From contig CANFGS010000009.1 of the NCBI GenBank assembly GCA_947446595.1, positions 1 through 64,000 of the forward strand: a DNA stretch of 64,000 nt, given 5' to 3'. Both the position numbers and the translations under genes were made by a program. Of the stretch, positions 11,343-46,038 are shown one piece after another. The notes beneath the pieces were generated by a model, which saw only the letters and a program-made list of their open reading frames with translations, searched no databases and was not told the origin of the DNA. The stretch is from Neisseriaceae bacterium (lineage in GTDB: Bacteria; Pseudomonadota; Gammaproteobacteria; Burkholderiales; UBA11063). The stretch's first letter is position 1; each line of letters begins with the position of its first letter.

Positions 11343-11753
11343 ATGAGACGTAGGGCTAAAACCAATGGCTTAATTAATCAAATGAATGTAGTGCCATATA
11401 TTGATGTGATGCTAGTATTACTAATTATTTTTATGGTAACAGCACCAATGTTTGTACCTGGAGTAATTAACCTACCTAGCGTTGGTAAAGCAGCTCAGGT
11501 AACACAGCAACCAGTAGAAATTAATATCAGTAAAGATGGAAGTTTTTCCATAACCCATGATAATACAACTACTCCTGTTGCTAATATTGATAGTTTAATT
11601 AGTCAAGTTCATGGTTTAGCTACTGGTGATACGCCAGTTGTAATTTCAGCTGATAAAGAAGTTCAATATAATAACGTCATTGTTGTAGTTGATAAACTAT
11701 ATGCTTCAGGTGTAAAAAAAGTAGCACTTGTAGTGAAAGAGCGTAATAGCTAA
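11343..11753 (+). CDS. tolR: TolR/ExbD family biopolymer transport protein
   Basis: NVVPYIDVMLVLLIIFMVTAPM TM signature; followed by tolA and tolB. Confidence 0.85.
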   Translation: MRRRAKTNGLINQMNVVPYIDVMLVLLIIFMVTAPMFVPGVINLPSVGKAAQVTQQPVEINISKDGSFSITHDNTTTPVANIDSLISQVHGLATGDTPVVISADKEVQYNNVIVVVDKLYASGVKKVALVVKERNS

Positions 11754-11770
11754 TAGGTTATAAAGACGTA

Positions 11771-18927: not shown

Positions 18928-18936
18928 ATATCCATC

Positions 18937-19935: not shown

Positions 19936-19969
19936 ATTACCCTTGCACTATAAACACTATGAGTAATGT

Positions 19970-20026
19970 ATTTTACCATATATTTAAACATTTTAATTAC
20001 GCTTAAGGATTTTCTTATGGTAAAAT
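19970..20026. promoter_or_regulatory. Divergent mltG/dnaX promoter region with mirrored extended -10 elements
   Basis: Perfect 11-bp inverted repeat ATTTTACCATA (19970-19980) / TATGGTAAAAT (20016-20026); each arm reads TGGTAAAAT toward its own gene, 33-35 nt before the start codons. Confidence 0.55.
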
Positions 20027-20058
20027 CTTGATGAATCACATATGAATAAGGTTAAATA

Positions 20059-21690
20059 ATGCAGCATACTGTCTTAGCACGTAAATGGCGCCCCAAAAAT
20101 TTTGCTGATCTAGTCGGCCAGCAAAATACAGTTAAGATTTTAACTAATATAATTAGCAACCATCGTTTGCACCATGCATACTTACTAACTGGTACCAGAG
20201 GTGTTGGTAAAACCACTATTGCAAGGATTATTGCCAAAGCCCTAAACTGCCTAAACCCAGTAAATGGAGAACCTTGCACTATTTGTGAGAACTGTGTAGC
20301 AATTGATAGTGGTAGCTTTGTTGATGTAATTGAAATTGATGCGGCATCCAATACTGGAGTAGATAATATCCGTGAGCTAATTGATAATGCATACTACGCT
20401 CCATCATCTGGTAGTTACAAGGTATATATTATTGATGAAGTGCATATGCTATCCAAATCAGCATTTAATGCTATGCTAAAAACTCTAGAAGAGCCTCCAG
20501 CTCATGTGATTTTCGTACTTGCAACAACTGATTTACAAAAAGTACCAGCAACTATACTATCAAGATGTTTGCAATTAAAACTCCGTAACTTATCGGTAAA
20601 TGAAATAAGTCAATATTTGGCATTCGTCCTTGATACTGAAAATAAAAAATATGAGATTGAAGCACTTAATTTAATTGCAACGGCTGCAAATGGAAGTATG
20701 CGAGATGCACTATCTATTCTTGATCAAGCAATTGCCTTTAGTAATGATAGCATAACATCAGCTACAGTATCTGATATGCTATCTTTGACTAATGATGATA
20801 TGATTTATAGTTTATTAGATGCATTAAGTAGCCTTGATGGTAAGATGCTAATGGATTCAATTAACACCATAAACGATAGCGGTAGTGATTTAGAAAATGT
20901 ACTTGTAAGCCTACAACAAAAACTCTGTAGCCTAAATTTAGCTCAACTAGGAGCATCAGCTTGCCCCATTGAACTTCACAAATATATCGATAAAATCAGT
21001 GTTAATGATGTTCAACTATACTTTGAGATAGCCAATCTAGGAATAGAGCAATTACAAAAAACACGTGATAAGTACCCAGTTTTTGTAATGATAATGTTAA
21101 GAATGTTAGCTTTTAATATTGGTAGTAGTGAACAAAAGACTATTACTATGGAGCAAAATAATTTCAAAGTAGCACCACCAGAGGAAGTTACTCCACTGTT
21201 GGCAACTGCTCCAATAAGAGAAACAGCTCCAACAATTGCTGCCATACCCATTAAAAACATTACAGAAACCACTCCAACACCACAAGAACCTAAAGAAGAA
21301 GCACCAATCTTTAATGGACAATGGTTTGACTTGGTGATATCGCTTAAAGATAAACTTGGGGTACTATACTCATTTCTAGAGAATGCAAAATTAAACAGCT
21401 ATACCGAATCGAGTTTTAATTTAACCCTTGATGCTCGGTATCAAAGCGCCCTAAACCCAAAACTAATTGGGCAGTTAGAACAAACACTAAGTGAATATTT
21501 CTTATGTAAAATATCAGTAGTAGTTGATTTTGCTGCAGAAGTTAGTGATACCCTAAAAGAAAAAACAATCCTGGATACTGAACAAAAACAACAAGTTGCA
21601 GAACAAGCAATTATGAATGATGAATATTTAGTTGAAGTATGTAGTGCTATTTCTGCTAAAATATTGCCAGGAAGTATAAAACCAATTTAA
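20059..21690 (+). CDS. dnaX: DNA polymerase III subunits gamma/tau
   Basis: LARKWRPKNFADLVGQQNTVKIL, GTRGVGKTTIARIIAKALNC, zinc module CTICENC, DEVHMLSKSAFNAMLKTLEEPP. Confidence 0.95.
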   Translation: MQHTVLARKWRPKNFADLVGQQNTVKILTNIISNHRLHHAYLLTGTRGVGKTTIARIIAKALNCLNPVNGEPCTICENCVAIDSGSFVDVIEIDAASNTGVDNIRELIDNAYYAPSSGSYKVYIIDEVHMLSKSAFNAMLKTLEEPPAHVIFVLATTDLQKVPATILSRCLQLKLRNLSVNEISQYLAFVLDTENKKYEIEALNLIATAANGSMRDALSILDQAIAFSNDSITSATVSDMLSLTNDDMIYSLLDALSSLDGKMLMDSINTINDSGSDLENVLVSLQQKLCSLNLAQLGASACPIELHKYIDKISVNDVQLYFEIANLGIEQLQKTRDKYPVFVMIMLRMLAFNIGSSEQKTITMEQNNFKVAPPEEVTPLLATAPIRETAPTIAAIPIKNITETTPTPQEPKEEAPIFNGQWFDLVISLKDKLGVLYSFLENAKLNSYTESSFNLTLDARYQSALNPKLIGQLEQTLSEYFLCKISVVVDFAAEVSDTLKEKTILDTEQKQQVAEQAIMNDEYLVEVCSAISAKILPGSIKPI

Positions 21691-21702
21691 TTAGGATTTA
21701 GT

Positions 21703-22035
21703 ATGTTCGATAAAGGCCAAATCGCTGGCATGATGAAAAAAGCGCAGGAAATGCAAAATAACCTGCAAAAAGCACAAGAAGAAATTGCCAAACTTGAAGT
21801 TAATGGCGAAGCTGGTGCTGGGATGGTCAAAGTTATAATGACTGGCAAACATGATTTAAAAAAAGTTACTATCGATCCTGCTGTTATGGACGATAAAGAA
21901 ATGTTAGAAGATCTTATTACTGCGGCGGTTAATGACGCTACACGTAAGGTTGAAGAACAATCTAACGCAAGAATGGGAAGTGTTACTGCAGGTATGCCTA
22001 TGGGCGGACTTGGCGGACTTAAACTACCGTTCTAG
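21703..22035 (+). CDS. ybaB: YbaB/EbfC nucleoid-associated protein
   Basis: [24 protein letters not shown]...[20 protein letters not shown]; immediately downstream of dnaX. Confidence 0.9.
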
Positions 22036-22045
22036 CTACTCCAAT

Positions 22046-22141
22046 GGTGGGTCTCCTTGCATTGTTAGCTACAAAACCTGGTCAGGTCGGGAACGAAGCA
22101 GCCACATGTGGATTTGACAAGTGCCAAGGGTCAGGCTCACC
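22046..22141 (+). ncRNA. ffs: Signal recognition particle 4.5S RNA
   Basis: Conserved apical loop GGTCAGGTCGGGAACGAAGCAGCC, self-complementary ends GGTGGGTCTCC.../...GGGTCAGGCTCACC, about 96 nt, downstream of dnaX-ybaB. Confidence 0.9.
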
Positions 22142-22851
22142 TACCTCTTTTCATCAATAATTTTCTTTAAGACATACCCAACTAGCATTAGCCCAAACAA
22201 TGGTGGTAAAAAACTAATTGTGCCATTAATAGGACGTAACCCCTTACCCTGTACCAATGGTTTTGATCCCGGTTCATCTGAATATGCCACCATAATTCCT
22301 TTATTTATACCGTACTTCTTAAGCCCTAGTCTAATTACTCTTGCAAGAGCACACATTTTGGTTTTACTAATATCAGCTAACTGCACGTGTCGTACATCAT
22401 AACGATTCCCGGCACCCATGCTTGATACGATTTTTATTTTATTAGTATAACAATAGCGCATCATTGCTATTTTTGAAGGTACGGTATCAATACAATCAAT
22501 TACATAATCAACTGAGTTATCAATAAGCTCTGACAAATTATCTTCATTGATAAATTTCTGTAGGACATTAACTTCGCATTCAGGATTAATACTCATAATA
22601 CGCTTATAAAACACTTCTACTTTAGTTTGCCCAACATCTGGAAGGGTTGCAATTAGCTGTCTATTGATATTGGTAATATCTACCGTATCATTATCTATAA
22701 TAGTAATCTTACCAACACCGGCTCTAGCTAGCGACTCAACCACTTGACCGCCAACCCCCCCCACTCCAGCAACAATAATATGTGCTTTAGCTAAATGAGA
22801 GGCCCTGTCTTCGCCAAGTAAAATAGATGTGCGATAAAACTGTTGTAACAT
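22141..22851 (-). CDS. tcdA: ThiF/MoeB-family tRNA threonylcarbamoyladenosine dehydratase
   Basis: HIIVAGVGGVGGQVVESLARAGVGKITIIDND and NRQLIATLPDVGQTKVEV. Confidence 0.85.
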   Translation of the reverse strand: MLQQFYRTSILLGEDRASHLAKAHIIVAGVGGVGGQVVESLARAGVGKITIIDNDTVDITNINRQLIATLPDVGQTKVEVFYKRIMSINPECEVNVLQKFINEDNLSELIDNSVDYVIDCIDTVPSKIAMMRYCYTNKIKIVSSMGAGNRYDVRHVQLADISKTKMCALARVIRLGLKKYGINKGIMVAYSDEPGSKPLVQGKGLRPINGTISFLPPLFGLMLVGYVLKKIIDEKR

Positions 22852-22854
22852 ATA

Positions 22855-23877
22855 CTACCGATAAAAAAAGTAGGCACAAATACCCAGGTTAACTACATAT
22901 AATAGCCCATTAACTAGAAAATGCCAAACCCTAATATCCTTACGAATCACATGTATGAATATCCACATAGTTGCACATAGTGTCAGAAAAATACTTAATA
23001 AACTAAGTCGACTGTTTAATGACCAATCAGTAAATAAGATTCCGATAACTGGTAATAGCGTACCTTGAAATACCATTGCACCAGTAATATTACCAATTGC
23101 TAAAGTATCTCTACCATGCCTTAGCCAAATTATACTATTAATTTTCTCAGGCATTTCCGTTGCAATAGGGATAATAATTAATGATAAGATAAATGGCGAT
23201 AAATTATATAATGTAGCTACATTATTTACACCATCAATAAATATTCCTGCAAAATATATCAACATCATTAAAGCGACAATCAACTGCAATGAAATACTAA
23301 TTTTACCGTATCTAAAGCCCAAAAATTGTATAGCAAGTTTACTATCGGCATGAGTTCCATGACCTTCAAGAATCAAACCAGCAGAAGCCCTAATTGTGAA
23401 CATTAGGTATATTAAATAACTAACAATTAGAATAATCGCAATTAAAACATTAATTAGGTGACTAAAACTAAAGTGTTGTAAAAATATTGCTATAAATGCT
23501 AAACCATAACCTATGAAAAAAAACCCTAAATCACGCCTAATACCAATATGTTCTGGTTTAATTATCCCATTTAACCCACGTTTTGGTATTATCGATAGCG
23601 CCATTACAAATACTGATAGTGTTGATAACATCAAAGGAGCTCCAAGAATTGCACCTACTCCAATCTCATTATTTGCCTTGCCTGAATGTGAACTTAAAAT
23701 CGCCAAAATTGGAATAATCGTCTCTGGTAATGCAGTACCAACTGCAGCAAGAATTGAGCCAGTAACCCCCTCTGAGATTCCAAGCCTTTCACCCAAATGC
23801 TCCAAAGCATTACAAAATAAATTACTACTGATTACAATAAATATTAGACTAACGAGCAAAAGGAATAAATTAGACAT
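22855..23877 (-). CDS. CaCA family sodium/calcium exchanger-like membrane protein
   Basis: GVTGSILAAVGTALPETIIPILA and PIATEMPEKINSIIW alpha-repeat-like motifs; start set at MSNLFLLL, just after the aroE stop. Confidence 0.8.
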   Translation of the reverse strand: MSNLFLLLVSLIFIVISSNLFCNALEHLGERLGISEGVTGSILAAVGTALPETIIPILAILSSHSGKANNEIGVGAILGAPLMLSTLSVFVMALSIIPKRGLNGIIKPEHIGIRRDLGFFFIGYGLAFIAIFLQHFSFSHLINVLIAIILIVSYLIYLMFTIRASAGLILEGHGTHADSKLAIQFLGFRYGKISISLQLIVALMMLIYFAGIFIDGVNNVATLYNLSPFILSLIIIPIATEMPEKINSIIWLRHGRDTLAIGNITGAMVFQGTLLPVIGILFTDWSLNSRLSLLSIFLTLCATMWIFIHVIRKDIRVWHFLVNGLLYVVNLGICAYFFYR

Positions 23878-24670
23878 GGTATCCCATCTTAAATAAGTTT
23901 TCAAACATAACTTTTGAGTTTGGCGTTTGAGCAAATAATTTAATAAACGCCACTTTGGCTTGTTCAATTAACATTCCTAAACCATTATACACACGTATAT
24001 TTGAGTTTACGTTTTGCATAGCATTTAGAAACAGGCTTTTTGTATATGTCATATCATAACATAAAACATTATTATTTATACACTCTACCCGACCAAATAA
24101 AGTATTATCCAGTGAATTAGGAGTAGTGTTAATTATTATATCATAATTCTTTTGTGGATTGAAATTATCAGTTGCAAATTTATCATGTAAAAACTCAATA
24201 CGCTGTTGATTACGCGCCAAAATATCAATAGATAAAGGATTATATACAATTAGATCTAGCAATACCGAATCTAAAACAAAACCACTACCAATAATAAGAA
24301 TATTTTTATTAACTAGATTTTCATTTTTATTTAGGATAAGATCATTAACCAATCCAACACCATCAGTGGTATCCGCTAATATCTGTCCAGAATTAGTTAT
24401 ACTTAAAAAGTTAGTAGCTTTACAAAAAGAGGCTCTTGAAGTATGTAGATCTGAGATAGAAAATGCATTTTGTTTAAAAGGGCTAGTGACATTTATTGCC
24501 ATGCCACCAGCTTTAAAAAAACCATCTACCTGAATAGCAAAATCTTTTTCATCTTTAGCAAGTATTTTTTGATAATCAAGCTCAACCCCCACATCTTTGG
24601 CAAATAAACCCCAAATTAAAGGTGAAAGACTATGCTCTATTGGGTTCCCAATTACTGCTAGCTTATGCAT
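23870..24670 (-). CDS. aroE: Shikimate dehydrogenase
   Basis: LAVIGNPIEHSLSPLIWG N-terminal motif; INVTSPFKQNAF; NTTPNSLD. Confidence 0.85.
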   Translation of the reverse strand: MHKLAVIGNPIEHSLSPLIWGLFAKDVGVELDYQKILAKDEKDFAIQVDGFFKAGGMAINVTSPFKQNAFSISDLHTSRASFCKATNFLSITNSGQILADTTDGVGLVNDLILNKNENLVNKNILIIGSGFVLDSVLLDLIVYNPLSIDILARNQQRIEFLHDKFATDNFNPQKNYDIIINTTPNSLDNTLFGRVECINNNVLCYDMTYTKSLFLNAMQNVNSNIRVYNGLGMLIEQAKVAFIKLFAQTPNSKVMFENLFKMGYHV

Positions 24671-24859
24671 CTACTATTAATTACCTAGTCTAAAAAGTTA
24701 ATATCAAGTAATAATTATACCAAAGTATTAATTGCTACTTTAATTTCATTAATCTTTTGTATACCTAGATTCGATAAAAACCTGTATTAATAGGGCTGGT
24801 CATCTCTATACGCAATAAACACTGCTGATTTTCTATTTTATGTGATAGATTCAAATAAT

Positions 24860-26104
24860 CTAAAATACCATGATAATCGATTCATCATCATAAACAAGAT
24901 AAAACTTATCTCTTAATTCTAGCCTGATTTTATTAATTTCATTAGAATCTTTGCCTTTTAACATTGCATATCCAATAAGATCAGTGGTATCATGATTGCA
25001 TGATATAAACTGACCAATACTAATATTAATATCAAGCCGAATAATATTAGGGTGAAGTTTAATCGATTCAAAACCATAAATTTGCTTGATCCTTCCAGGT
25101 TTATTTGAAAGAATCCAGATATTATGGTATATAATACCAGTATCATTATTAAATTTTGCTGGTAATGTTATGTGCTCACCAGCAAATAACCGAGTACACA
25201 TCTCAATCTGTTTATATTTTGTATATTCCTGAGCCATATACCAAATATATCCCCCACCAATTCTTGCTTGAGACTCTATTAAATAAATTTTGTCATTATA
25301 TATTTTGATTTCAGTATGATTAATACCATTTTTTACATCAATTGCATTTAAAAAAGATCTAACTGCATTAAATATTCTCTCTATTAATTCTGGTGATAAA
25401 TTTGGTGCAGGTAAAATTATATCGGTGATACAACACGAATTTACCGAAGTTGAAATTTTTTCTAACCCAATAACAATTAATGCATGTTGTCCATTATATG
25501 AAATAGTCTCTACATTTAATATATCATCCCCAGGAATATACAATTCTGCCATGTATGTTTCATGAGTAAAATCATAATTTAGAGATTTTATACTATCTTT
25601 GCTAAAAATTTTTTTTACATTTATGCTACCACCCCCTTTAGTTGGTTTTATTATGACAGCTCCCCCCATTGCCACCCAAAAATCCATAAGATCCTGTTTA
25701 TTATGAATTAATTTGTAGGGTATAGAAATTTCAGGAGCATATTTTTTTAAATGTTCACGCATAAATTGTTTGTTTTTAGTAAGGATTATAGGTAACAAAT
25801 CATTACCATTTATCATTAATAGTGTTTTTATAGCAGTAGCCGACTCTAAACCATACTCTGTAAAAGTTACCACCCCATCAAGTTTCTCCTTACTATTTAT
25901 CTCCTGAGCATGTAAAACACATAATAGAATATTGGTAATATCACAAACTATTACTTTATTTAATTTTGCTTGAATGTCTTTTTCAAGGACAATATTATTA
26001 TTAAATATCAATGTAATCTTTAGCCCAGAATTTATTGAATATTTGAGCGTTTCTATATTCCAGTCAGCGACCCCAATTAAAAGAATATGTTTTTGAACTA
26101 ACAT
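24860..26104 (-). CDS. ATP-grasp domain protein (carboxylate-amine ligase-like)
   Basis: AVIIKPTKGGGSINVKKI, MAELYIPGDDILNVETISYNG, FLNAIDVKNGINHTEIKIYNDKIYLIESQARIGGG. Confidence 0.8.
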   Translation of the reverse strand: MLVQKHILLIGVADWNIETLKYSINSGLKITLIFNNNIVLEKDIQAKLNKVIVCDITNILLCVLHAQEINSKEKLDGVVTFTEYGLESATAIKTLLMINGNDLLPIILTKNKQFMREHLKKYAPEISIPYKLIHNKQDLMDFWVAMGGAVIIKPTKGGGSINVKKIFSKDSIKSLNYDFTHETYMAELYIPGDDILNVETISYNGQHALIVIGLEKISTSVNSCCITDIILPAPNLSPELIERIFNAVRSFLNAIDVKNGINHTEIKIYNDKIYLIESQARIGGGYIWYMAQEYTKYKQIEMCTRLFAGEHITLPAKFNNDTGIIYHNIWILSNKPGRIKQIYGFESIKLHPNIIRLDINISIGQFISCNHDTTDLIGYAMLKGKDSNEINKIRLELRDKFYLVYDDESIIMVF

Positions 26105-26106
26105 GG

Positions 26107-27378
26107 TTATGACTCCTTTAAATAATGCGTGACCTCATTAGAAAGCTCTATCGCAGTTTTATCATCAAACAAAGTAGTAACATACGTATAACAAATATGC
26201 ATATAATCATTTATAGTACATACATTAATTGTAAATCCAATATCACCAATAACTTGTGACCCACAAAAAAATATTTTTTTCACTACTAGTGATACATCAT
26301 TTATATCTAGAGATATATTTCCTAAATTGGATAATCCGAAATCATATTCAAAATGGGTTTTATTAAAATCAATGGGTAATATATCATCTACCTTATACTG
26401 CAAAGGACTATGCACAAACAGTTTTTGTTGTTCATGTAATTGTTGTTGATAACTAACTGCGATATCCCATATACTTTTTTGAGAATAGCTTGGTTTATGA
26501 AGAGTAAGAATTGCACTAGCGTATAATCCTAACGTATTATTTGATATTTTGTTATTGCCGATACCCCTTAAATTTATAGCTGTTAATAATGAAATTATTG
26601 ATTCTGGTGATAGTTTTATATTATATCCAGCTAATATTATTGTTGCACATAAGTAACTATTAATAGTTACACCATGCTTTTTACATTTTTTCTTTAAATG
26701 TTGTAATTCAAGAGGATTTATCTGGCTTAAAATTATTTTTTGTCTTCTATGATTTATTTCCACATAATTCCTATACTGTAATGGTTTTACAGCCCCTAAT
26801 CGCTGATTAAAATCTTTTTTGTATTTAGCAAAATCCTCATATGTATATTTTTTTTTGGCAAAATCCTCTAAACTTTTAGGTAACAAAGGTGTTTTTTTAT
26901 ATGATACAAATTTTTGGCTGATTAAATTAATTAAATTATTAATTAACCCCATTAATGATAACCCGTCTGATATACTATGATGAATTGATAGAACAATACA
27001 ATGCTCAAACACTCCATTATCACAATAAGATAGAATTGTATATCGCCACAAAAATTTTTCAATATCAAAAGTTTTTATTAACTCTTTTTCTACAACACTC
27101 ATTAATTTATTAGAGAAAGTTGGCTTATCTTCAAGATGTATAATTTTGTTTGGAACCTGGTTAAACATGCAACTATTATAAAAATAGTACTCATTATTAT
27201 ATTTTTTGATTGTTGCCTGTAACCAAGGATTATATCGCCAAATTTCTTCGATAGCACTAATAATAGTCTTTAAACTTGTATCTCCAGTAAAATACAATAC
27301 CCCTATGACTGTAGTATAGTTGATTACAACATGACTCGCCTCACGATAACCAAGCTTACGTAAAATTTGCTTATTCAT
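26107..27378 (-). CDS. Condensation-domain-fold acyltransferase (NRPS C-domain / alcohol acetyltransferase superfamily)
   Basis: HHxxxDG catalytic motif in LSIHHSISDGLSLMG; C-terminal DFGLSNLG; free-standing 423 aa. Confidence 0.75.
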   Translation of the reverse strand: MNKQILRKLGYREASHVVINYTTVIGVLYFTGDTSLKTIISAIEEIWRYNPWLQATIKKYNNEYYFYNSCMFNQVPNKIIHLEDKPTFSNKLMSVVEKELIKTFDIEKFLWRYTILSYCDNGVFEHCIVLSIHHSISDGLSLMGLINNLINLISQKFVSYKKTPLLPKSLEDFAKKKYTYEDFAKYKKDFNQRLGAVKPLQYRNYVEINHRRQKIILSQINPLELQHLKKKCKKHGVTINSYLCATIILAGYNIKLSPESIISLLTAINLRGIGNNKISNNTLGLYASAILTLHKPSYSQKSIWDIAVSYQQQLHEQQKLFVHSPLQYKVDDILPIDFNKTHFEYDFGLSNLGNISLDINDVSLVVKKIFFCGSQVIGDIGFTINVCTINDYMHICYTYVTTLFDDKTAIELSNEVTHYLKES

Positions 27379-27427
27379 ATAACCTCTTTTTATAAGTAAC
27401 CAGTTTATTATACTAAGTTACATGATT

Positions 27428-28204
27428 TTATAAATGTAAGCCCCCATCAACACAAAGTATGTCACCTGTAACAAATGAAGCATATAAACATAACCACAAT
27501 ACAGCATCTGCAACATCACTGGCAATCCCTACTCTAGACATAGGATGCATTTTTTCAATTTGCCCCTTGGTTAAATTATGTTTTTTTATAACTTGTCGTG
27601 CATTTGAAGTCCATATAACACCAGGGCATACTGCATTAACCCGTATATTATTTATAGCATATTCTATAGCGGCTGACTTAGTCATACCAACCACCCCATG
27701 TTTGCTAGCAGTATAAGCGACACCTCCTGTCTTACTTGCCCTAATGCCTGCATATGATGCAATATTAACAATAGCACCTCTAGTTTCTTGAGTTAGCATT
27801 TGCTTTATCTCTGATTTTAAACACAACCACGTACCTTTAAGATTAATATTAATAACCTCATCCCATACAGATTCTTCATAATCTGCAGTCTTTACAAACG
27901 AAGATCCTTCAATACCAGCATTATTTACTGCATAATCTAAACGCCCATACTGATTTAAAATTTGATTAAATAAATTTTGCACACTTTCATTATCCGTAAT
28001 ATCTGCTTGTAAAAATACTACAGACTGATTGAGTTTTGCTAGTTTTTGTTGTGCTTTAAGACCTGTGGTCTTATTTCTTCCACTAATTACTACTTTAAGC
28101 CCCATTTTTGCAAAAGCTTCTGCACAAGCATAACCAATACCAGAGGAACCGCCTGTTATTAGAACGACTTTATTAAATAGTTTATTGTTAGGTTTAGTAC
28201 GCAT
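27428..28204 (-). CDS. Short-chain dehydrogenase/reductase
   Basis: LITGGSSGIGYACAEAF; NNAGIEGS; YTASKHGVVGMTKSAAIEYA; VTGDILCVDGGLHL. Confidence 0.9.
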   Translation of the reverse strand: MRTKPNNKLFNKVVLITGGSSGIGYACAEAFAKMGLKVVISGRNKTTGLKAQQKLAKLNQSVVFLQADITDNESVQNLFNQILNQYGRLDYAVNNAGIEGSSFVKTADYEESVWDEVININLKGTWLCLKSEIKQMLTQETRGAIVNIASYAGIRASKTGGVAYTASKHGVVGMTKSAAIEYAINNIRVNAVCPGVIWTSNARQVIKKHNLTKGQIEKMHPMSRVGIASDVADAVLWLCLYASFVTGDILCVDGGLHL

Positions 28205-28247
28205 AATTTTCTCAAAATAATATATTTTTAAAAGTCTACTATGTAGA

Positions 28248-29210
28248 TTAAGATATTAATACTAAGTTGTTGATTATATAATCCACAGTAATTAAGTCTA
28301 GCAAAGCAAATCCAGTAGAACTAAAAACTGTTTGTTCTTTTTGTAAGTTAGATTGTTGCATAGTATGTAATTGGGATACAGTTATTGCATTTCGGTGAAG
28401 TTCACCAGCCTCCTCTATTGCTGTTACAATATCTTCTACAATTAAAAGCGAAGCATTTAAGACATGTTTTGGAACTTCACGAGAGTTTGAATTATGCGCC
28501 CCCATACAGTTAATATGCACACCTGATTTTAAATTATCATAATCACATAAAGGTTCGAATGAAGATGTAGTTGTAGAAATAATATCTACATCTAAAATAC
28601 AATCTTTTATTGAAGAATATTGTAAAACCCTTAATTTGGGATATAATAATTTAATTTCATTAATAAATTTAGTCAAATTATGATTACTACGGTTATATAC
28701 ATGTAGCTCCTTAATAGATCTTACACTCAATATACCGCTAATTTGTTGCCTTGCCTGTGTTCCTGCACCTATTATAGCAAGTTTGCTTGCGTTAAGCAAA
28801 GTGCAATATTTTGTCACTATAGCAGTAATTACTGCACATTTAATATTAGTAACTGCAGTACCATCTAATACTGCAACAACCTCTCCCGTGATACTTGAAA
28901 AAACTGTAACCACAGTATTAACTGTTGGAATGATATCTAAAGAATTACGCTTAAAAAAACTACCCGTTTTATTAATATATAATCCCATTTTACTACTAAT
29001 TGCAGGCATTGAGAAAAATATTGAATATGGCTTATTGATTATGATTATATCTTTAGGAGGAATTATATAATCATTCTGTGATAAAATCTTTAACATATTC
29101 TCCATATGATTAATCAATGCGTTAATATTTATAGTATTTGTTATAAAATCATAAGAGTAAAACTTATAAGACATTTTTTCTCCTACAAGGTTAGTTATTA
29201 AAGCAATCAA
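28248..29210 (-). CDS. Ornithine cyclodeaminase / mu-crystallin family protein
   Basis: LAIIGAGTQARQQISGILSVRSIKELHVYNRS; AVLDGTAVTNIKCAVITAI; VHINCMGAHNSNSREVP. Confidence 0.85.
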   Translation of the reverse strand: MIALITNLVGEKMSYKFYSYDFITNTININALINHMENMLKILSQNDYIIPPKDIIIINKPYSIFFSMPAISSKMGLYINKTGSFFKRNSLDIIPTVNTVVTVFSSITGEVVAVLDGTAVTNIKCAVITAIVTKYCTLLNASKLAIIGAGTQARQQISGILSVRSIKELHVYNRSNHNLTKFINEIKLLYPKLRVLQYSSIKDCILDVDIISTTTSSFEPLCDYDNLKSGVHINCMGAHNSNSREVPKHVLNASLLIVEDIVTAIEEAGELHRNAITVSQLHTMQQSNLQKEQTVFSSTGFALLDLITVDYIINNLVLIS

Positions 29211-29730
29211 AGTCTATTTTATGTGAATAATCAACATCTTTTCTATGTTTGGGTAGTAAAATAAATCTATTAAAACCAATAACCATAGTATTATCTTGGT
29301 TATATCCGATAGTTTTCACGTTAATAACACCTTGATCCAAATTTTTTTGAGATTCTTTTTTTGAAATTATTTTACTCACTGCATAAAGTGTATCATCAAT
29401 AAATACAGGATGTGGAAGTCTAATATTGTCCCACCCAAGGTTCGCAACTGCTTTTGCACTTAGTATATTAACTGTCATTCCAGTGACAATAGATAAAGTA
29501 AGCGTACTATTAACCAAAATTCGTTTAAATTGAGTATTTCTTGCATATTGTTCATCAAAGTGAATTGGATGCTGATTAACAGTATTTAAAGTATGATTAA
29601 TATTATCTGTCATCGTAATGGTTCTACCTGGTCGGTGTTCAAAAATATCACCAACTTCAAAATCATCAAAAGTAAACCCATTACTTTCTCGATAATGATT
29701 ATTAGATAACTTTATTAAACGGTTTTGCAT
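29191..29730 (-). CDS. MaoC-like hydratase (mesaconyl-CoA hydratase-like)
   Basis: FDDFEVGDIFEHRPGRTITMTDNINHTLNTVNQHPIHFDEQYA hot-dog fold signature with NxHPIHxD variant. Confidence 0.8.
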   Translation of the reverse strand: MQNRLIKLSNNHYRESNGFTFDDFEVGDIFEHRPGRTITMTDNINHTLNTVNQHPIHFDEQYARNTQFKRILVNSTLTLSIVTGMTVNILSAKAVANLGWDNIRLPHPVFIDDTLYAVSKIISKKESQKNLDQGVINVKTIGYNQDNTMVIGFNRFILLPKHRKDVDYSHKIDFDCFNN

Positions 29731-29759
29731 TTTTAATACTATCCTTTAAATTTAACAAC

Positions 29760-30587
29760 TTACTTTTTTGATGTGGTAACTATTTTTTGTGCTAATTTAT
29801 AAAACGGATTGCCCACCATGATATCTTTAACAGATAAGATACCTGTGATATTATTATCAATATGACTAATACTATTTGCCCATTCTACATCATTAGAATC
29901 ATACTGATACATTTCATTAATTATCTCTACTTGGGATTTTGATATTGCTAATTTTCCACTAAAACCAATTTGCTTAGATTCTAAGACATCCATAGTTAAA
30001 GTTTCTTTATTTCTTAACATAAATGTTGGCGTATCTATTGCTGGAATTTTATATTTACAAGCACACAAAACTACTTGCTGTCTATAATATGCAAGGTTGT
30101 TTATAAATGTAGGTGGCAACCCAAGCTCTAATGAAAGATCTGCACTTCCAAATAGTAAAGCATCGCTATATTTCGCAATATCATCTATATTGATCACTGC
30201 CTCTGCAGTCTCAATTAATGAAATTAATTTAGGTGGTTTGACACTCGCTGAAACAAATAAATTTTTTATTAACTTTAGATCAATGCTAGATGATGCTTTT
30301 GATACAAGTATATAATTAACATTAATTGAATTATCAATTAAAAACATAATATCACGTATTCCATCAATAGAATGAATACAGTTTATTCTAAAATTATAAC
30401 CACAATTTGTTTTAATTTGATTTTTATTCACAAGAAATTCATGCCGGGCATTATTTTTATCTTTCATACTCACCGAATCTTCAAAGTCAATCATAAAAAT
30501 ATCAGCATTAGAGGCACTGCCTTTATTATATAAATCAATTTTTAAAGCAGAAGAAATTAAAATACTTCTAAAGTTAGGAAATAGCAT
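29760..30587 (-). CDS. HpcH/HpaI aldolase / CitE-like lyase
   Basis: DIFMIDFEDSVSMKDKNNAR, LISLIETAEAVINIDDIAKYSDALLFGSADLSLELG, GFSGKLAISKSQVEIIN. Confidence 0.85.
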   Translation of the reverse strand: MLFPNFRSILISSALKIDLYNKGSASNADIFMIDFEDSVSMKDKNNARHEFLVNKNQIKTNCGYNFRINCIHSIDGIRDIMFLIDNSINVNYILVSKASSSIDLKLIKNLFVSASVKPPKLISLIETAEAVINIDDIAKYSDALLFGSADLSLELGLPPTFINNLAYYRQQVVLCACKYKIPAIDTPTFMLRNKETLTMDVLESKQIGFSGKLAISKSQVEIINEMYQYDSNDVEWANSISHIDNNITGILSVKDIMVGNPFYKLAQKIVTTSKK

Positions 30588-31800
30588 TTATAACCCCTTT
30601 GACAACATTACAAAATTCTAAAAATTTCTCCTGTGGAATACGGTTATTTATCATCATTCTTAACCCAGCTTTTCCTCGCGCTACTATTGGAAAAAATAAA
30701 GGTGAAACATAGAACCCTTTTTGATAAATGGTTTTTGCAGCTTCTAGTGCCAATAAAGACTCTCCAAGAGTTACAAATCTAATTGGTACTTCACTACCAC
30801 TTTGGCTGGTATAAATTTGGCTATCAAAATAAGCTATATTATCTTTAAGCCTTTGTTGAATCACTTTAAATTCATTTGATTTATGTACTACTAACGAACC
30901 TTGAATTGCTCCAATTGTTGCAGTTGAAACAGGTCGTGACCATAATAAGGGTCCAGCGTAACGCTTTATATATTTGTACATTTGGCTATTTTTACTCAAC
31001 ATTGCAATACCACCAGCACCAGCACCGAATGCTTTTGCCATAGAAAACACAATGATTGTTTTATCATTTATTTCAGAATGAATTTCTCTAACATAACCAT
31101 AACCATCCTGACCACAAACAGATAATGAATGCGAATCATCATAATAGACATATAAATTATATCTATTTTGTAAATCCAATAACTCTTTTACTTTTGCAAC
31201 ACCACCAGTACTATAGGCCCCATCACAAACGTAAACTACTACAGGGTTATGTTTACACTCATTTTCAATAAAGCTTATATCATTATGATCACACGTAACT
31301 ATATTTGTTTCATCTGCACAAATTGGTTTAATTATATTCATTGAAAAATGACATAGTTTATCAAAAATTATTTTTGGTTTTATATTATTAGTTAATACCC
31401 CAGAAGCTAAAAGCGGTAGGACTCCCTCACTCATTGCTGAACAACTACTACCAACTATAACTTGAGCTTTAAAATATTCGTTCAGCTCTTCTTCTGTATC
31501 GTAAAGAATTTTACTTATTAAACGCGTGCGTGAACAAGTAATATTAGTTTGTGGATACCTGTCTAATGCAGTTTTTATACCCATTATCACTTTTGGATGT
31601 CGGTCTAGATTAAGATATGAGCACGATACCATATGATAAAAATCATGGCCATTTTCATCAACAAAACTTCCATTTTGTCCCTCATCAGCAACAATATCAA
31701 GAACACCATAACGTAAACCTAACTCCCAGTCATCTGAACTTAGGGATACTACTTTTTGTAGATTGCTATAATTATTCTTGTTCATTAGTTTATTATCCAT
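30574..31800 (-). CDS. PLP-dependent alpha-oxoamine synthase family (class I/II aminotransferase fold)
   Basis: YYDDSHSLSVCGQDGYGYV matches D-[DE]-[AS]-H-[AS]-x-x-x-x-G motif; VFSMAKAFGAGAGGIAML PLP-lysine region; ANITCSRTRLI region characteristic of BioF/KBL/SPT/CqsA superfamily. Confidence 0.8.
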   Translation of the reverse strand: MDNKLMNKNNYSNLQKVVSLSSDDWELGLRYGVLDIVADEGQNGSFVDENGHDFYHMVSCSYLNLDRHPKVIMGIKTALDRYPQTNITCSRTRLISKILYDTEEELNEYFKAQVIVGSSCSAMSEGVLPLLASGVLTNNIKPKIIFDKLCHFSMNIIKPICADETNIVTCDHNDISFIENECKHNPVVVYVCDGAYSTGGVAKVKELLDLQNRYNLYVYYDDSHSLSVCGQDGYGYVREIHSEINDKTIIVFSMAKAFGAGAGGIAMLSKNSQMYKYIKRYAGPLLWSRPVSTATIGAIQGSLVVHKSNEFKVIQQRLKDNIAYFDSQIYTSQSGSEVPIRFVTLGESLLALEAAKTIYQKGFYVSPLFFPIVARGKAGLRMMINNRIPQEKFLEFCNVVKGVINAIS

Positions 31801-31859
31801 AATTTACTCACTTTTAATAATCCATAACATAATATAGCATAATATAATATATTTGTCAA

Positions 31860-31896
31860 TTTCAATATACAAAATTTCAATATACAAAATGTATAT
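31860..31896. promoter_or_regulatory. Putative operator upstream of the seven-gene operon
   Basis: Exact tandem duplication of TTTCAATATACAAAA (31860-31874, 31875-31889) overlapping a perfect palindrome ATATAC-AAAAT-GTATAT (31880-31896). Confidence 0.5.
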
Positions 31897-32046
31897 CTCA
31901 TATGTATAAACATAAAAAACGCAGTTGAACGTATATTATCAGCAGAAATTTTCTGAATTAAATTTCTAAAAATCTATTCAATTAACTTCAATTGCCCAGA
32001 GTTGTGCCATTTTTGGCACTAACCCTACGGAAAAAATAATAACAAT

Positions 32047-32427
32047 CTAGAAAGGAACTTCAAGTGTGCTTGAATCAGCCTCAGGTAGCATATGCACATC
32101 TGGATTAGTTGCATCACTATCAACACGACTCAATAGTTCAATACTATTAGCATAAAGACGCATAGTTCCAACTGGAATATTGTCCTTATTTATATAAGCA
32201 TTTACATTTGGATAACCATCTACTAGTACCTTAGTACCTTTTCTAGCATACATACAAGCTATTTCAGCAAGTTTCCCATTGCAGCTTACATCTACCCAAT
32301 CAGTTTTTGGGTTAGTTTTAGTACCTGTACTAATCCCTACTGCAAAAGTTGCAAACTGTGTACCTGATGGATCTAGACGCATCTCTGGATCACGACCAAT
32401 ATTGCCTGTTATTGTTAAACGTTTCAT
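32047..32427 (-). CDS. ssb: Single-stranded DNA-binding protein (accessory copy at end of T4SS operon)
   Basis: MKRLTITGNIGRDPEMRLDPSGTQFATFAVGIST...DWVDVSCNGKLAEIACMYARKGTKVLVDG. Confidence 0.85.
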   Translation of the reverse strand: MKRLTITGNIGRDPEMRLDPSGTQFATFAVGISTGTKTNPKTDWVDVSCNGKLAEIACMYARKGTKVLVDGYPNVNAYINKDNIPVGTMRLYANSIELLSRVDSDATNPDVHMLPEADSSTLEVPF

Positions 32428-32550
32428 AATCTGTCCTTTTCAAAAAATTAAATTTAAAATATCGTTGTAACGTGCAAAAAAACCGCCAAATCCCCTCCTT
32501 TCTTTAAAATTAATGGAATAACGAATGAAAAAACCTCAATATCTATAAAA

Positions 32551-33099
32551 TCACCACAACATATGATCAATTGCATAAATCAATTTAGCTCCACGATAAA
32601 TTTGCTCTCTATTTATAACTCCAAAATATCGCGAATCATAAGAATGCGGAGTTACTCCTAATACAAAATATTCATTATGCTTCAATTTAAAACGCCCAAA
32701 ACCAATAGGTAATAAATTTATTTGTCGCGATTTTTGTACCAAACGACTATTCTTATATAAATAATTATTTACTCTTACCCCATCTTCAGCAATACTAACC
32801 TCATCTCCTTCTTTAGCAACAATTTGCTTCATTAAATAAGGAGTATTATGTAGACATTCACCACTTTTATACGGTAAACCCAACTGGTGTAATACCTCAG
32901 CACGACTTTCATCCCAAACACATAAAAGAACAATATCATGTGGTTTTAGCTCAATAATCGGATAAGTAAAATAATATCCTTTTATTAATGAAATCGAAGG
33001 ATTATAAATAAACTGCCTCTTCACAAATATTAATCCTCCACTCAAAATAAAACCCAAAATAAGCGGTGCAATACATTTTTTATATGAATTAATATGCAT
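32551..33099 (-). CDS. TraF-like S26 family conjugal signal peptidase
   Basis: NPSISLIKGYYF (Ser), MKQIVAKEGDEV (Lys), SYDSRYFGVI box E. Confidence 0.8.
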   Translation of the reverse strand: MHINSYKKCIAPLILGFILSGGLIFVKRQFIYNPSISLIKGYYFTYPIIELKPHDIVLLCVWDESRAEVLHQLGLPYKSGECLHNTPYLMKQIVAKEGDEVSIAEDGVRVNNYLYKNSRLVQKSRQINLLPIGFGRFKLKHNEYFVLGVTPHSYDSRYFGVINREQIYRGAKLIYAIDHMLW

Positions 33100-33559
33100 T
33101 ATGAATTACTTTATACACATAGCCATTATTGAACCCACTATGGAAATTTCCTGTATTGTAAGCACTTATTGCTTTATACAGTGCTTCTTTATCATTTGCT
33201 GAGTTCAACTTAGCATTTTTGTAATTCTTCCCCAAAATAACTCCAGCTAAATTAAGATTCTTACATGGATCTAACATATCATGGGCCATATATCCATATT
33301 TATGCACATTTCTGATATTTATCTGGGCCAAACCAATATCAAAATCATAGTTATGCTGTTCAAGATAATCTACCCAAGCACTGGCTTCTTTAAAGTTTTT
33401 TGCGCCATATAGTAAATGCTTGCCATGATTTAGTCCAATAGCCAAAGTATTACCACGACTCTCAGTTTTAACTATCGCAACCATAGTAGTTTGTGCTACA
33501 TTTGGTGCGCAAGTAAGGGCATAATTTGGTATATCAATCAATTTAACCCATCCTATCAA
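33089..33559 (-). CDS. VirB1-like lytic transglycosylase
   Basis: MVAIVKTESRGNTLAIGLN, YDFDIGLAQINIRN, AISAYNTGN SLT signature. Confidence 0.85.
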   Translation of the reverse strand: MIGWVKLIDIPNYALTCAPNVAQTTMVAIVKTESRGNTLAIGLNHGKHLLYGAKNFKEASAWVDYLEQHNYDFDIGLAQINIRNVHKYGYMAHDMLDPCKNLNLAGVILGKNYKNAKLNSANDKEALYKAISAYNTGNFHSGFNNGYVYKVIHNAY

Positions 33560-34982
33560 AATCTAATTGATCATAAACAATATCTTGATAGATATCTTTA
33601 TCTGGATCATATTGCAATATCTGTCTTAACGCAGTTACCTTACGCTTTACAATATTTTGATATTCGCCATCCATTTCTTCTCGCAGCGTAATATTTTGAA
33701 TTGAAATAATCCCATTGATAGTAAACCCCACTTCCTGACGATTAACTTTTACCCCTGGATGATCACGAACACAGCTTTCAAATCGATACAAAGCTTCATT
33801 GACTCCATTTGCATGAATTGTCGCAATACCACCTGGATGCCCTGTATTCCATGCTTTTAATAAAGTATATGCCTCAGCTCCCCTCACTTCTCCCATAACT
33901 ATCCTATCAGGTTTAAAGCGAAGTGTAGTTCGAAGAGCATCATACATAGAAAAAAACTCACCAATAGTAAAACCAATAGAACGTGAAGTATTAAATTTAA
34001 GTTCAGGAACATCTTCAATAATCAAAACTCTAGTATCGGGAAATAACTTAGCTATTTCAAAAAGTATTGCATTAGCTAAAGTAGTCTTACCCGAACCAGT
34101 ACCACCTGCAATTAGAATATTAAATTTACGCCCAATCCAATTAAGGATAGTATCGTAGCTACTTTGCTGCATAACTCCACTACTTACAAAATCACTTAAG
34201 GTAAATACCTTTGGAGAATGTTTACGAATACAAAAGGCTGGAAATTGTACAACTGGTGGGATAACACCAGTGAACCTATGCCCATACCTAGGAATCTGGC
34301 ATTCAAGGCTCGGGCTTTTTTGATGAATAAATTTACCGCTTATACTAGCTAAAACACTCATTATAGTTTCGGCTTTGGTTGAACTCATTGTAACTAAATC
34401 AGTAGTGATTAGTGTATCGGGGTAGCTTCTAAAAATTTTTATATCTGCATCAGTTTTTATTTCTTTATATGCTAGCTCAAACGCTGAATCATTTGGCAAA
34501 TGTTTATTGATTAAATCTAATAAAAAAATGATACTATCTTCAGGCAATATTGGTGACTCTGGTAAATCTCCAGTCTCTATCATTTGGATATAATCAAGTA
34601 AAATATGATCTGATATTTGACAAATTGTATTTTCAGTAAAATAATTCTTTAGACATTTTGCAATTACCCGTAGATCATCTTTTAAACGCCCGTGAAGACG
34701 CACCCAAAATAGTATTGAATTATGATTGGTTTTTAAACATTTATATACAATATGTTGCCCAATAGCAACCTTTTCAGATTCAATCTTAGTTTCAATATTA
34801 CGTAATAAATTTTTAAGCTCCTGCCCATGCTGTTGCACTAATATATGCCCAACTGTAGTTCCATTAGACTTTCTATATGGATTGAGAATTATTTCGGTAG
34901 TATTGGTATCTTGAAGCACCTCCAAAATATCGGCCATATCTTTTTCTAAATGACGTAATGCATCATTATTATGTTCTGACAT
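33543..34982 (-). CDS. VirB11/TrbB-family secretion ATPase with enlarged N-terminal region
   Basis: ILIAGGTGSGKTTLANAILFEI Walker A; VLIIEDVPELKF; LRFKPDRIVMGEVRGAEAY; TGHPGGIATIHAN; 479 aa. Confidence 0.9.
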   Translation of the reverse strand: MSEHNNDALRHLEKDMADILEVLQDTNTTEIILNPYRKSNGTTVGHILVQQHGQELKNLLRNIETKIESEKVAIGQHIVYKCLKTNHNSILFWVRLHGRLKDDLRVIAKCLKNYFTENTICQISDHILLDYIQMIETGDLPESPILPEDSIIFLLDLINKHLPNDSAFELAYKEIKTDADIKIFRSYPDTLITTDLVTMSSTKAETIMSVLASISGKFIHQKSPSLECQIPRYGHRFTGVIPPVVQFPAFCIRKHSPKVFTLSDFVSSGVMQQSSYDTILNWIGRKFNILIAGGTGSGKTTLANAILFEIAKLFPDTRVLIIEDVPELKFNTSRSIGFTIGEFFSMYDALRTTLRFKPDRIVMGEVRGAEAYTLLKAWNTGHPGGIATIHANGVNEALYRFESCVRDHPGVKVNRQEVGFTINGIISIQNITLREEMDGEYQNIVKRKVTALRQILQYDPDKDIYQDIVYDQLDFDRMG

Positions 34983-35004
34983 TATCTATTCTCTCCTAAT
35001 AATT

Positions 35005-35955
35005 TCATTTTCTAAATGAGCCAGAAAAAGCACCTGAGAGCATATCAACCGCACCACCCAAACCTTCGCCAAACTGTATATTGACGTTACTTGCTAATGT
35101 TGATGCCGCCCATTCTGGCAATTCACTACATAATAAACTGATGATTACCGCACTACCTAATACTTTTAGAATAACCGCCCCAAGAGCTACAATATCTTTC
35201 GCCGCATTAACATCAGTAGCCCACCCTTGCATCTGCACCGTTAGAACCCCCAATAAAAACGATACTGCCAAAAACTTAATAGCAACACCAGCTACGGCTT
35301 GAAGATACCGCTGCCAAAACCCCATAGTCCACGAACTACCAGCAAAACCAGTTAAAATAAATCCTGCATAGAGTAAAAAATACGCTTGTAAAATAACCTT
35401 AATAATATAAAACGCGGTTAAAGATAAAACCACTAATAAAATCACTTGCATAATTGCTAATGTAATTTTAAGGGTTATATAATCAAAAGCACCAGTTCCA
35501 TCAGTAACAGCACTAATAGCATTTGAAATACACGAAAAATTACTTACAATCTCAGATGGTCCAAGATTTTTAAAGTTTTGTCCAGCACTTAGAGATAATG
35601 TATAACCACTACTTACACTACCAAGATTTGCAAAATATTCTATAATCTCTTGATATAAGCTAACATTAATAATATAATGGGCAAAAAAAAACCCTAAAAC
35701 CATCCGCGTGAAAAAAAACACCCACAGCTTCTCTATATCTCCAGCAAACACCTTTTTTACAGTCAACTGCCACATAAATTCCATAGCAAAAAGAGCATAA
35801 AAGATTTGCTTCACAATAGGATTAATCTTTGACTGCCAAGCGTATCCTGCATTAGAAAATTGGGATACTATATTATCTAAAACTCCACCTTGTGCAACTG
35901 TACATGTTAGTGCTTGCATCTTATAATCCTGACTTACTAAACCCCGTATATGCAT
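35005..35955 (-). CDS. VirB6/TrbL-family inner-membrane T4SS protein
   Basis: Polytopic 316 aa protein in T4SS order; AYFLLYAGFILTGFAGSSWTMGFWQRYLQAVAGVAIKFLAV resembles TrbL core. Confidence 0.75.
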   Translation of the reverse strand: MHIRGLVSQDYKMQALTCTVAQGGVLDNIVSQFSNAGYAWQSKINPIVKQIFYALFAMEFMWQLTVKKVFAGDIEKLWVFFFTRMVLGFFFAHYIINVSLYQEIIEYFANLGSVSSGYTLSLSAGQNFKNLGPSEIVSNFSCISNAISAVTDGTGAFDYITLKITLAIMQVILLVVLSLTAFYIIKVILQAYFLLYAGFILTGFAGSSWTMGFWQRYLQAVAGVAIKFLAVSFLLGVLTVQMQGWATDVNAAKDIVALGAVILKVLGSAVIISLLCSELPEWAASTLASNVNIQFGEGLGGAVDMLSGAFSGSFRK

Positions 35956-36484
35956 CGGTATTATTTTGTTTTTCGAGCTTTCGTTCAGCCAACTGCTTCT
36001 GTCCTTGTTGCGCCATCAAAACCTGCATTTGTGCCAAAGTATTTTGAGTTGAAGCCGCAGTCTCCACAGCTGAACGTTGAAGAGCCAATGCCGCTGCTTG
36101 AGGATTAGTTTGAAACTGTAAAAGAATATCAGCAATACTTCTTACATTTTGCACCACTCCTGTTATATTTTGTATTGACCAAGAGAACTGTGAACACAAA
36201 TCATCATTTACATTATTAATATAATTTTGCAAATTCTCTGTATCAGTTGGTGAACATAATGCACAAATTTGGGTACCAACTGATTGCAACTGTTGTAAAC
36301 TGTGTAATTGCGACACTTGCTTAGCAATTGACATTGCTTGACTCATAGTTGAAAGATACCCATTAACAGTAGCTAAATAGGTATTCATAGTAGCAAGATC
36401 CTTTGATACTATGTTTTGATCAATTGTTGGTACAATTGCTAAAGCATTATTAGCTAAAAACATCAGTAATATAATTTTTCGCAT
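35921..36484 (-). CDS. VirB5/TrbJ-like T4SS component
   Basis: Signal peptide, coiled-coil-rich 187 aa, between VirB10 and VirB6. Confidence 0.6.
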   Translation of the reverse strand: MRKIILLMFLANNALAIVPTIDQNIVSKDLATMNTYLATVNGYLSTMSQAMSIAKQVSQLHSLQQLQSVGTQICALCSPTDTENLQNYINNVNDDLCSQFSWSIQNITGVVQNVRSIADILLQFQTNPQAAALALQRSAVETAASTQNTLAQMQVLMAQQGQKQLAERKLEKQNNTDAYTGFSKSGL

Positions 36485-36497
36485 ATCATTCCTTTAG

Positions 36498-37646
36498 TTA
36501 ATTTTTATTCCATGGTTTTAATATTAAGTCAGCGGTTAGCATGATATTAAACTGATAACCTTGACGAATAATTAAAGTAGGTGCAACATTCAAGTTTTTC
36601 TGCGTAACTGATAATGCTGTTTGCCCTAGTTGTTGCCCCAAACTTCCTGCTAGTGTTTGCCCCACAGTTGGATTTGCATATCCTCCACTTTGCACATTAG
36701 TATTTACATTATTTTGACTATATTGCATTCCTGCTGTAATAACCCCCATAATGAAACTGGTACCAAAAATTTGCCAGTATTTATTATCTACTTGGTCATA
36801 AAACCCAGAATACCCAGCAATATCAGTCCCAGGGGTTGCTTTAAGATCAAATGAACTACCATTTGGATAGATAAGTCGATTCCATGCGACCGCAACTCGT
36901 TGTTGACCATAAGCAACGTTAGAATCATATAAACCAACGAGTTTTGAGCCCTGTGGAATTAGTAAATACTGCCTTGATACACTGTCATATACATTGTTCC
37001 TCACAAAAGCTATAACTTCTCCGGGTAAATCAGAATTAATTCCGTTAATCATAGTAGATGGAATTACACTCCCAGCCTTTAACTCATAAGGGCTTTTAGG
37101 ATCAATAATCTCAGATCCATAATACGCCTTTGAAGAGTTAGATTCATTACCAGATACTACTGGATTAGCTACCGAACTAGTAGACGAACCACTACTCACA
37201 ACTCCACTACTCACTGATTCCATGTTTTTGGAGAATTTACTAAACATCAATGTTTTTGAGCTAATTCCATTATTTTCAGAATCTAGCTGCTTAAGCAATT
37301 GCTTTTGCTTTACCTGTATTAATTGATGCTTAAACTGCACTTCCTCATTATCAACAATTGGCGGTACACTTACTACTGACTCTACAACTTTAACAGCCGC
37401 TTTAGGAGAACTAGCACTCATATAGGCTGATTCATTAGTATGTTTGACTTTAGCTAATATATCAGTCTCACGATTATTGTATCCTGCATAGGGCTTAATA
37501 TCTTCTGACACTATAGATTTATCCTTTGCAAAAGCACCATAAAACACTATAGCAACAATAGTAATGGCTAAGACACTACCAAAAAAAAGTATTTTCTTTC
37601 TTGATAGACCTTCATTATTAGCTTGTTTATCAAATAATTTACCCAT
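36498..37646 (-). CDS. VirB10/TrbI-family T4SS protein
   Basis: SPYELKAGSVIPSTMINGINSDLPGEVIAFVRNNVYDS...LLIPQGSKLVGLYDSNVAYGQQRVAVAWNRLIYPNG TrbI signature. Confidence 0.9.
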   Translation of the reverse strand: MGKLFDKQANNEGLSRKKILFFGSVLAITIVAIVFYGAFAKDKSIVSEDIKPYAGYNNRETDILAKVKHTNESAYMSASSPKAAVKVVESVVSVPPIVDNEEVQFKHQLIQVKQKQLLKQLDSENNGISSKTLMFSKFSKNMESVSSGVVSSGSSTSSVANPVVSGNESNSSKAYYGSEIIDPKSPYELKAGSVIPSTMINGINSDLPGEVIAFVRNNVYDSVSRQYLLIPQGSKLVGLYDSNVAYGQQRVAVAWNRLIYPNGSSFDLKATPGTDIAGYSGFYDQVDNKYWQIFGTSFIMGVITAGMQYSQNNVNTNVQSGGYANPTVGQTLAGSLGQQLGQTALSVTQKNLNVAPTLIIRQGYQFNIMLTADLILKPWNKN

Positions 37647-37648
37647 AA

Positions 37649-45981: not shown

Positions 45982-46038
45982 TTATTATCTTTCAATTAAT
46001 AGACTTAAATTATAACTTATAAGCTTAAATTATATATA

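Follow-up and report, generated by a model that had tools for sequence, protein, structure and literature searches.

The question raised by contig CANFGS010000009.1 (Neisseriaceae bacterium, assembly GCA_947446595.1), of which positions 1-64,000 were analysed as one stretch (the window), is what could be made by the seven tightly packed minus-strand genes at 24860-31800, headed by an alpha-oxoamine synthase (AOS). Sequence comparison indicates that this operon probably encodes a carrier-free route to a ketomethylene (carbonylmethylene) pseudopeptide, with a protein of the ornithine cyclodeaminase/mu-crystallin family (OCD) apparently replacing the reductase KtmF of the ketomemicin (ktm) pathway and a different set of enzymes finishing the product. 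A ketomethylene link is an uncleavable C-C replacement of one amide bond. The genes were compared with those of locus L026, which belongs to a Streptomyces strain credited in its genome paper with a ketomemicin-type cluster. In transcription order, the genes are:

30574-31800, minus strand: AOS, KtmB/Alb29-like (NF005697; PDB 8XHA; L026 AOS; trees)
29760-30587, minus strand: CitE/RipC-like aldolase, KtmA-like (PF03328; RipC model; L026 aldolase)
29191-29730, minus strand: MaoC/RipB-like dehydratase, KtmC-like (PF01575; RipB model; L026 MaoC)
28248-29210, minus strand: OCD/mu-crystallin-family putative NAD(P)-dependent reductase (PF02423, 137 bits, cut-off 24)
27428-28204, minus strand: short-chain dehydrogenase/reductase (SDR) (PF13561, 210 bits; TGGSSGIG and YTASK motifs intact in the translation)
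26107-27378, minus strand: stand-alone condensation-fold acyltransferase, weakly PapA-like (PF00668, 46.6 bits, cut-off 30.6)
24860-26104, minus strand: ATP-grasp protein, probably of the L-amino-acid-ligase type, not the PGM1/KtmD type (LAL_C2, 36.7 bits, cut-off 29.4)

All seven open reading frames (ORFs) are intact and open, and Pfam and NCBIfam bear out the first-pass annotation, which had described packed, partly overlapping minus-strand genes of these families (Aminotran_1_2/NF005697 AOS, HpcH_HpaI, MaoC_dehydratas, OCD_Mu_crystall, adh_short_C2, Condensation, and ATP-grasp with LAL_C2). The AOS and CitE genes overlap by 14 bp, CitE and MaoC are 29 bp apart, and MaoC and OCD overlap by 20 bp; gaps of 43, 49 and 2 bp then separate OCD from SDR, SDR from the condensation-fold gene, and the latter from the ATP-grasp gene. 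Judged by the homologue in locus L014, the OCD probably starts at ATG 29174 instead of TTG 29210. As annotated earlier, the seven genes include no carrier protein, polyketide synthase or nonribosomal peptide synthetase module, or transporter; a hidden carrier protein is ruled out because intergenic gaps of ≤49 bp leave no space for one.

The AOS belongs to NCBIfam NF005697 (484 bits; curated cut-off 342), a family titled "hypothetical protein", and lies far below the cut-offs of the KBL, BioF, ALAS, SPT and autoinducer synthase equivalogs (BioF, 119 of 426 bits). Against the PDB, four sequences scored 285-288 bits and every other AOS type ≤86 bits; the closest, at full length and 288 bits, was 8XHA. 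This is Alb29, an enzyme of the albogrisin pathway, and the paper on it also cites KtmB, from ketomemicin biosynthesis, as a natural-product AOS. The AOS is 42% identical to that of L026, and trees group it with AOSs of ketomemicin-type clusters; the aldolase and MaoC protein are 31% and 47% identical to their L026 counterparts. This homology implies that the first three genes of the operon correspond to the ketomethylene-forming core. The pathway thus gives a likely function for part of NF005697.

Other products have been considered for such an enzyme. The earlier annotation had proposed a carrier-free pathway to a small amide or ester serving as a signal, metallophore or antimetabolite. Its carrier-free, amide-forming and decarboxylative AOS chemistry is supported, but a metallophore or signal is less likely than a protease-inhibitor-like ketomethylene pseudopeptide: the autoinducer synthase model gives just 73 of 428 bits and the SbnB model 56 of 327. 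A simple alpha-aminoketone, whether signal or inhibitor, could also be made in CqsA/LqsA or dynaplanin style from an ordinary acyl-CoA, with the other genes decorating it. NF005697 AOSs without CitE or MaoC do occur in Rhizobiales and some Pseudomonas, and DynZ of dynaplanin is a KtmB homologue that works with few partners. That product nevertheless seems quite improbable here, given the low autoinducer synthase score and the CitE and MaoC genes that overlap or adjoin the AOS gene, in the sister genome G013 as well.

The aldolase and dehydratase have RipC (165 bits, cut-off 375) and RipB (192 bits, cut-off 340) as their best NCBIfam models. Residues R67, E126 and D150 of the aldolase are invariant in 51 of 51 pathway homologues, as are N52 and H57 of the MaoC protein in all 50 with letters at those positions. 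The two model matches might point to breakdown of itaconate or of another branched acid like it, but the scores fall far under the equivalog cut-offs, the seven genes include no RipA CoA-transferase, and the ketomemicin-type aldolase of L026 is itself RipC-like (216 bits), so that the label marks chemistry, not pathway. We regard the catabolic role as highly improbable.

To see how far these genes travel together, 81 non-duplicate loci were gathered by AOS similarity alone and neighbours were counted within 6 kb. CitE and MaoC were both present in 60 of them, and these core loci come from five phyla (Pseudomonadota, Actinomycetota, Myxococcota, Cyanobacteriota and Acidobacteriota). Two loci reduce to four genes, ordered CitE-MaoC-OCD-AOS in L024 and MaoC-OCD-AOS-CitE in L163, L163 having turned up when the class was sampled without selection; gene sets this small speak for a single reaction sequence shared by the four proteins. 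At no other locus compared did the exact seven-family set occur. Of the co-occurrence on which the earlier annotation had hinged, then, the AOS/CitE/MaoC(/OCD) core holds widely and the full set does not. The core module of aldolase, dehydratase, OCD or medium-chain dehydrogenase/reductase (MDR), and AOS offers a searchable genetic signature, with tailoring genes swapped, for a neglected protease-inhibitor-like class.

We infer the following route from family identities, conserved catalytic residues and the co-occurrence of genes that are intact and lie on one island. The CitE-like aldolase would take a 2-oxo acid and condense it with acetyl- or malonyl-CoA, which is RipC chemistry reversed, and the MaoC protein would dehydrate the adduct to a substituted enoyl-CoA. 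The OCD would then saturate the double bond, as KtmF does in the ktm pathway, leaving a substituted succinyl-CoA. In the AOS step, decarboxylative coupling of this thioester with an L-amino acid would yield H2N-CHR'-CO-CH2-CHR-COOH, which mimics a dipeptide but cannot be cleaved at its link. The ATP-grasp ligase could add an amino acid, and the condensation-fold enzyme could transfer an acyl group to an amine or hydroxyl that is still free. The ketone may be reduced by the SDR. Homology to ktm-type enzymes makes the aldolase, dehydratase and AOS steps quite probable; the order of steps beyond the ktm gene functions (PMC11943689) draws on general biochemistry and deduction. By analogy, the product would likely act by inhibiting peptidases.

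The case for the OCD as replacement for KtmF comes from their mutual exclusion in the core loci. An OCD accompanies the core in 38 of the 60, a KtmF-like MDR in 11, neither in 11 and both in none (Fisher 2e-6); in one locus counted as having neither (L070), an MDR adjoins a second AOS-CitE-MaoC set. Clusters of the DUFx/hydrolase/2-oxoglutarate oxygenase type have an OCD in L014 and an MDR in L085. By its Pfam score the protein is a member of the OCD superfamily, and it reached no named equivalog cut-off. Window-type OCDs share a His in the motif MGxH and a Lys in TN-x-KCA, where the pathway OCDs of Streptomyces, Serratia and Pseudomonas, and three comparison OCDs, have Arg.

The ketomethylene core might be kept while the OCD makes or modifies the amino building block, reducing an imine as alanine dehydrogenase, BhcD and SbnB do; the C=C bond would then be reduced by the SDR or a housekeeping enzyme, or retained. 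All biochemically named OCD-family models and all solved structures matched act on amino or imino acids, the loci with neither reductase would fit, and SDRs recur in some AOS loci. Set against this are the absence of any core locus with both OCD and MDR, the four-gene operons in which the OCD is the only reductase, and the Lys that window-type OCDs carry at a position where the comparison OCDs keep Arg. On balance, imine reduction seems somewhat unlikely.

Several observations weigh against a ketomethylene pathway with the OCD in place of KtmF. Alb29 is long-branched and the deep nodes of the AOS tree are unresolved. The closest AOS relative, in G013 (69% identical), has AOS-CitE-MaoC with no adjoining OCD, on a contig that ends 1 kb upstream. 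Eight of nine further NF005697 AOSs, from an unselected Pseudomonadota sample, have no CitE or MaoC nearby, so that membership of the family does not by itself imply a ketomethylene pathway; in the tree, a separate Rhizobiales clade accounts for six of these, and the other two have a branch to themselves. The 11 core loci in which both OCD and MDR are missing within 6 kb also count here. The AOS tree requires only a few OCD/MDR switches (at least three), which makes the effective sample small, and the Fisher value therefore overstates the case. To our knowledge, OCD-family enzymes otherwise reduce C=N, not C=C, which makes this the least certain step of the core; we judge the chances that the OCD carries out KtmF's reduction to be about even. 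The fuller proposal, namely that the OCD genuinely reduces the C=C bond of an enoyl thioester, having replaced KtmF, and that the operon yields an N-acylated ketomethylene or, after SDR action, a hydroxyethylene pseudopeptide of a new carrier-free, protease-inhibitor-like class with a core module spread across phyla, is doubtful, and it would give an OCD-family enzyme a testable new role.

That a 2-oxo acid would enter the pathway is hinted at by other members. L023 encodes a DpgA that passes its equivalog cut-off, together with DpgB-, C- and D-like partners, beside the core genes; L071 encodes DpgA above cut-off with a DpgC-like protein; and L054 encodes a 4-hydroxy-2-oxovalerate aldolase and an acetaldehyde dehydrogenase, both above cut-off. 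Members of the latter two families are also present in Streptomyces and Nocardia loci. The end product of the Dpg route is an arylglyoxylate. Such 2-oxo-acid-making genes are consistent with an aldolase that accepts a 2-oxo acid; the window lacks them, so the operon's own 2-oxo acid is probably supplied by primary metabolism.

Two of these cluster types deserve mention in their own right. In Massilia mucilaginosa (L023, 4566-12441) and Rhizobium sp. BK650 (L071, 2164-14694), AOS, CitE, MaoC and OCD stand together with the DpgA-type synthase and DpgB/C/D-like enzymes; a pseudopeptide derived from dihydroxyphenylglyoxylate is the suggested product. L054, L077, L081 and relatives in Serratia, Xenorhabdus, Streptomyces and Nocardia share, across two phyla, the near-identical order AOS-CitE-(acetaldehyde dehydrogenase)-(4-hydroxy-2-oxovalerate aldolase)-OCD-MaoC. 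The Serratia and Xenorhabdus AOSs nest with those of Streptomyces, and this cluster has apparently moved between phyla.

The remaining operon genes would tailor the product. The ATP-grasp protein scores 26.9 bits on ATP-grasp_4, 0.1 below the cut-off of 27, and above cut-off on LAL_C2; it matches the L-amino acid ligases 30VH and 3VOT in the PDB (E 5e-7 and 2e-4), and its best relatives among the AOS loci are the ATP-grasps of Corallococcus clusters. The condensation-fold protein retains its HHxxxDG motif as HHSISDG and matches PDB 8S6L (E 6e-7). No close homologue of it was found in 60 related genomes, and homologues on cyanobacterial plasmids (21-23% identical) have no AOS nearby. SDRs 46% and 41% identical to the operon's occur in AOS loci L073 and L029. 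Amide extension by the ATP-grasp enzyme and an acyl cap added by the condensation-fold enzyme are plausible, going by fold, with the odds near balance; reduction of the ketone or an enone by the SDR is a guess, and one more likely wrong than right.

Further AOS loci vary in their partners. Mycobacterium szulgai, M. gastri and M. angelicum (L080, L082, L097) have AOS-CitE-MaoC with an ATP-grasp, L082 also a methyltransferase; within 6 kb, OCD and KtmF-like genes are absent. L014 encodes a 307-aa protein without a Pfam match (11330-12253) that recurs with AOS, an alpha/beta hydrolase and a 2-oxoglutarate-Fe oxygenase in Corallococcus, Burkholderia and two alphaproteobacterial metagenome-assembled loci. 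The Rhizobiales clade of NF005697, exemplified by L142 (6866-8107, Agrobacterium fabrum C58 pAt), has the AOS alone, often on conjugative plasmids and with no CitE or MaoC nearby.

In the window, the operon occupies a discrete block and is preceded by a promoter-like site:

24757-31985, no strand: island holding the whole operon, absent from the relative G010
31831-31859, minus strand: promoter-like site TTGACA-17-TATATT, the region's best match (11/12), about 31 bp upstream of the AOS gene; a consensus match only, with TG preceding the second hexamer

Comparison of window positions 18001-38000 with G010 contig C62 (L136) by blastn aligned a left flank (18818-24757, 89.6% identical) and a right flank (31980-34982, 92.1% identical) that lie about 50 bp apart in G010, the empty site of a missing 7.2-kb block. 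Absence as a single block means that the seven genes were gained or lost together, as a discrete unit and not a chance grouping. The G+C content is 29.4% within the island and 33.9% and 33.7% outside, which favours gain over loss; no 8-14-mer common to both ends marks insertion-type repeats. Neighbouring genes were rejected as cluster members: aroE (23870-24670), the genome's sole detected copy, is kept in relatives and the island ends upstream of it, and the type IV secretion genes to the right lie outside the island: G010, though without the operon, has a VirB11 95% identical to theirs. These VirB-type genes, with a single-stranded DNA-binding protein gene, span 32047-42030, followed by two AcrB-family pump genes at 42835-49197. 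A type I restriction R subunit lies at 62129-63913; its SWI2/SNF2 match begins at profile position 114, the N-terminal part being missing from the ORF. The host is a small, low-GC betaproteobacterium (1.74 Mb, 57 contigs, 99.98% complete). Among 400 genomes sampled from its order, six have the AOS at E <1e-70, five of them from the host's genus.

Literature searches by enzyme-family names returned no cluster of this make-up; the lead came via PDB 8XHA. The first-pass annotation had not recognised the combination, and yet a precedent exists. The ktm cluster encodes an aldolase, an AOS, a dehydratase, an ATP-grasp ligase, an amidinotransferase and a dehydrogenase (PMC11943689), and the operon has four of these six functions, though its ATP-grasp is of another subfamily. 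The gene row of L026 comprises a CitE-like aldolase, AOS, MaoC, a PGM1-type ATP-grasp, a gene that matches no Pfam family and by elimination is the amidinotransferase, and a zinc-type MDR dehydrogenase. Like ktmA-F of Micromonospora, Streptomyces mobaraensis and Salinispora, the operon has adjacent KtmA, KtmB and KtmC homologues, an ATP-grasp and no carriers. It differs in that its putative ligase, with LAL_C2, has no meaningful BLAST similarity to the PreAtp-grasp/PGM1 ligase of L026 (KtmD), none of its seven proteins matches the L026 gene at the KtmE amidinotransferase position, and OCD and SDR stand in place of the zinc-type MDR (KtmF). With its additional OCD, SDR and condensation-fold genes and its betaproteobacterial host, and lacking amidinotransferase, PGM1-type ligase and KtmF, it is not a ketomemicin cluster.

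The literature of 2025 still gave ketomemicins and arphamenines as the sole known natural ketomethylene pseudopeptides, with ktm homologues reported from Actinomycetota. Arphamenines A and B of Chromobacterium violaceum share the ketomethylene class and a Gram-negative producer, and arphamenine inhibits aminopeptidase B; this comparison is by product class, no arphamenine gene cluster having been found in the literature consulted. Alb29 differs in using L-Glu with small acyl-CoAs and branches apart from window-type AOSs. In dynaplanin biosynthesis (dynZ/dynY), a KtmB-related C-acyltransferase likewise joins an acyl-CoA to an amino acid, and the available part of that report describes no aldolase/dehydratase step. 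RipB and RipC of itaconate degradation, the named models nearest to the MaoC and CitE proteins, would share their chemistry with the operon in reverse. Thus the core chemistry is that already known from ketomemicins and arphamenines, and what is probably new here is a different reductase and different finishing enzymes.

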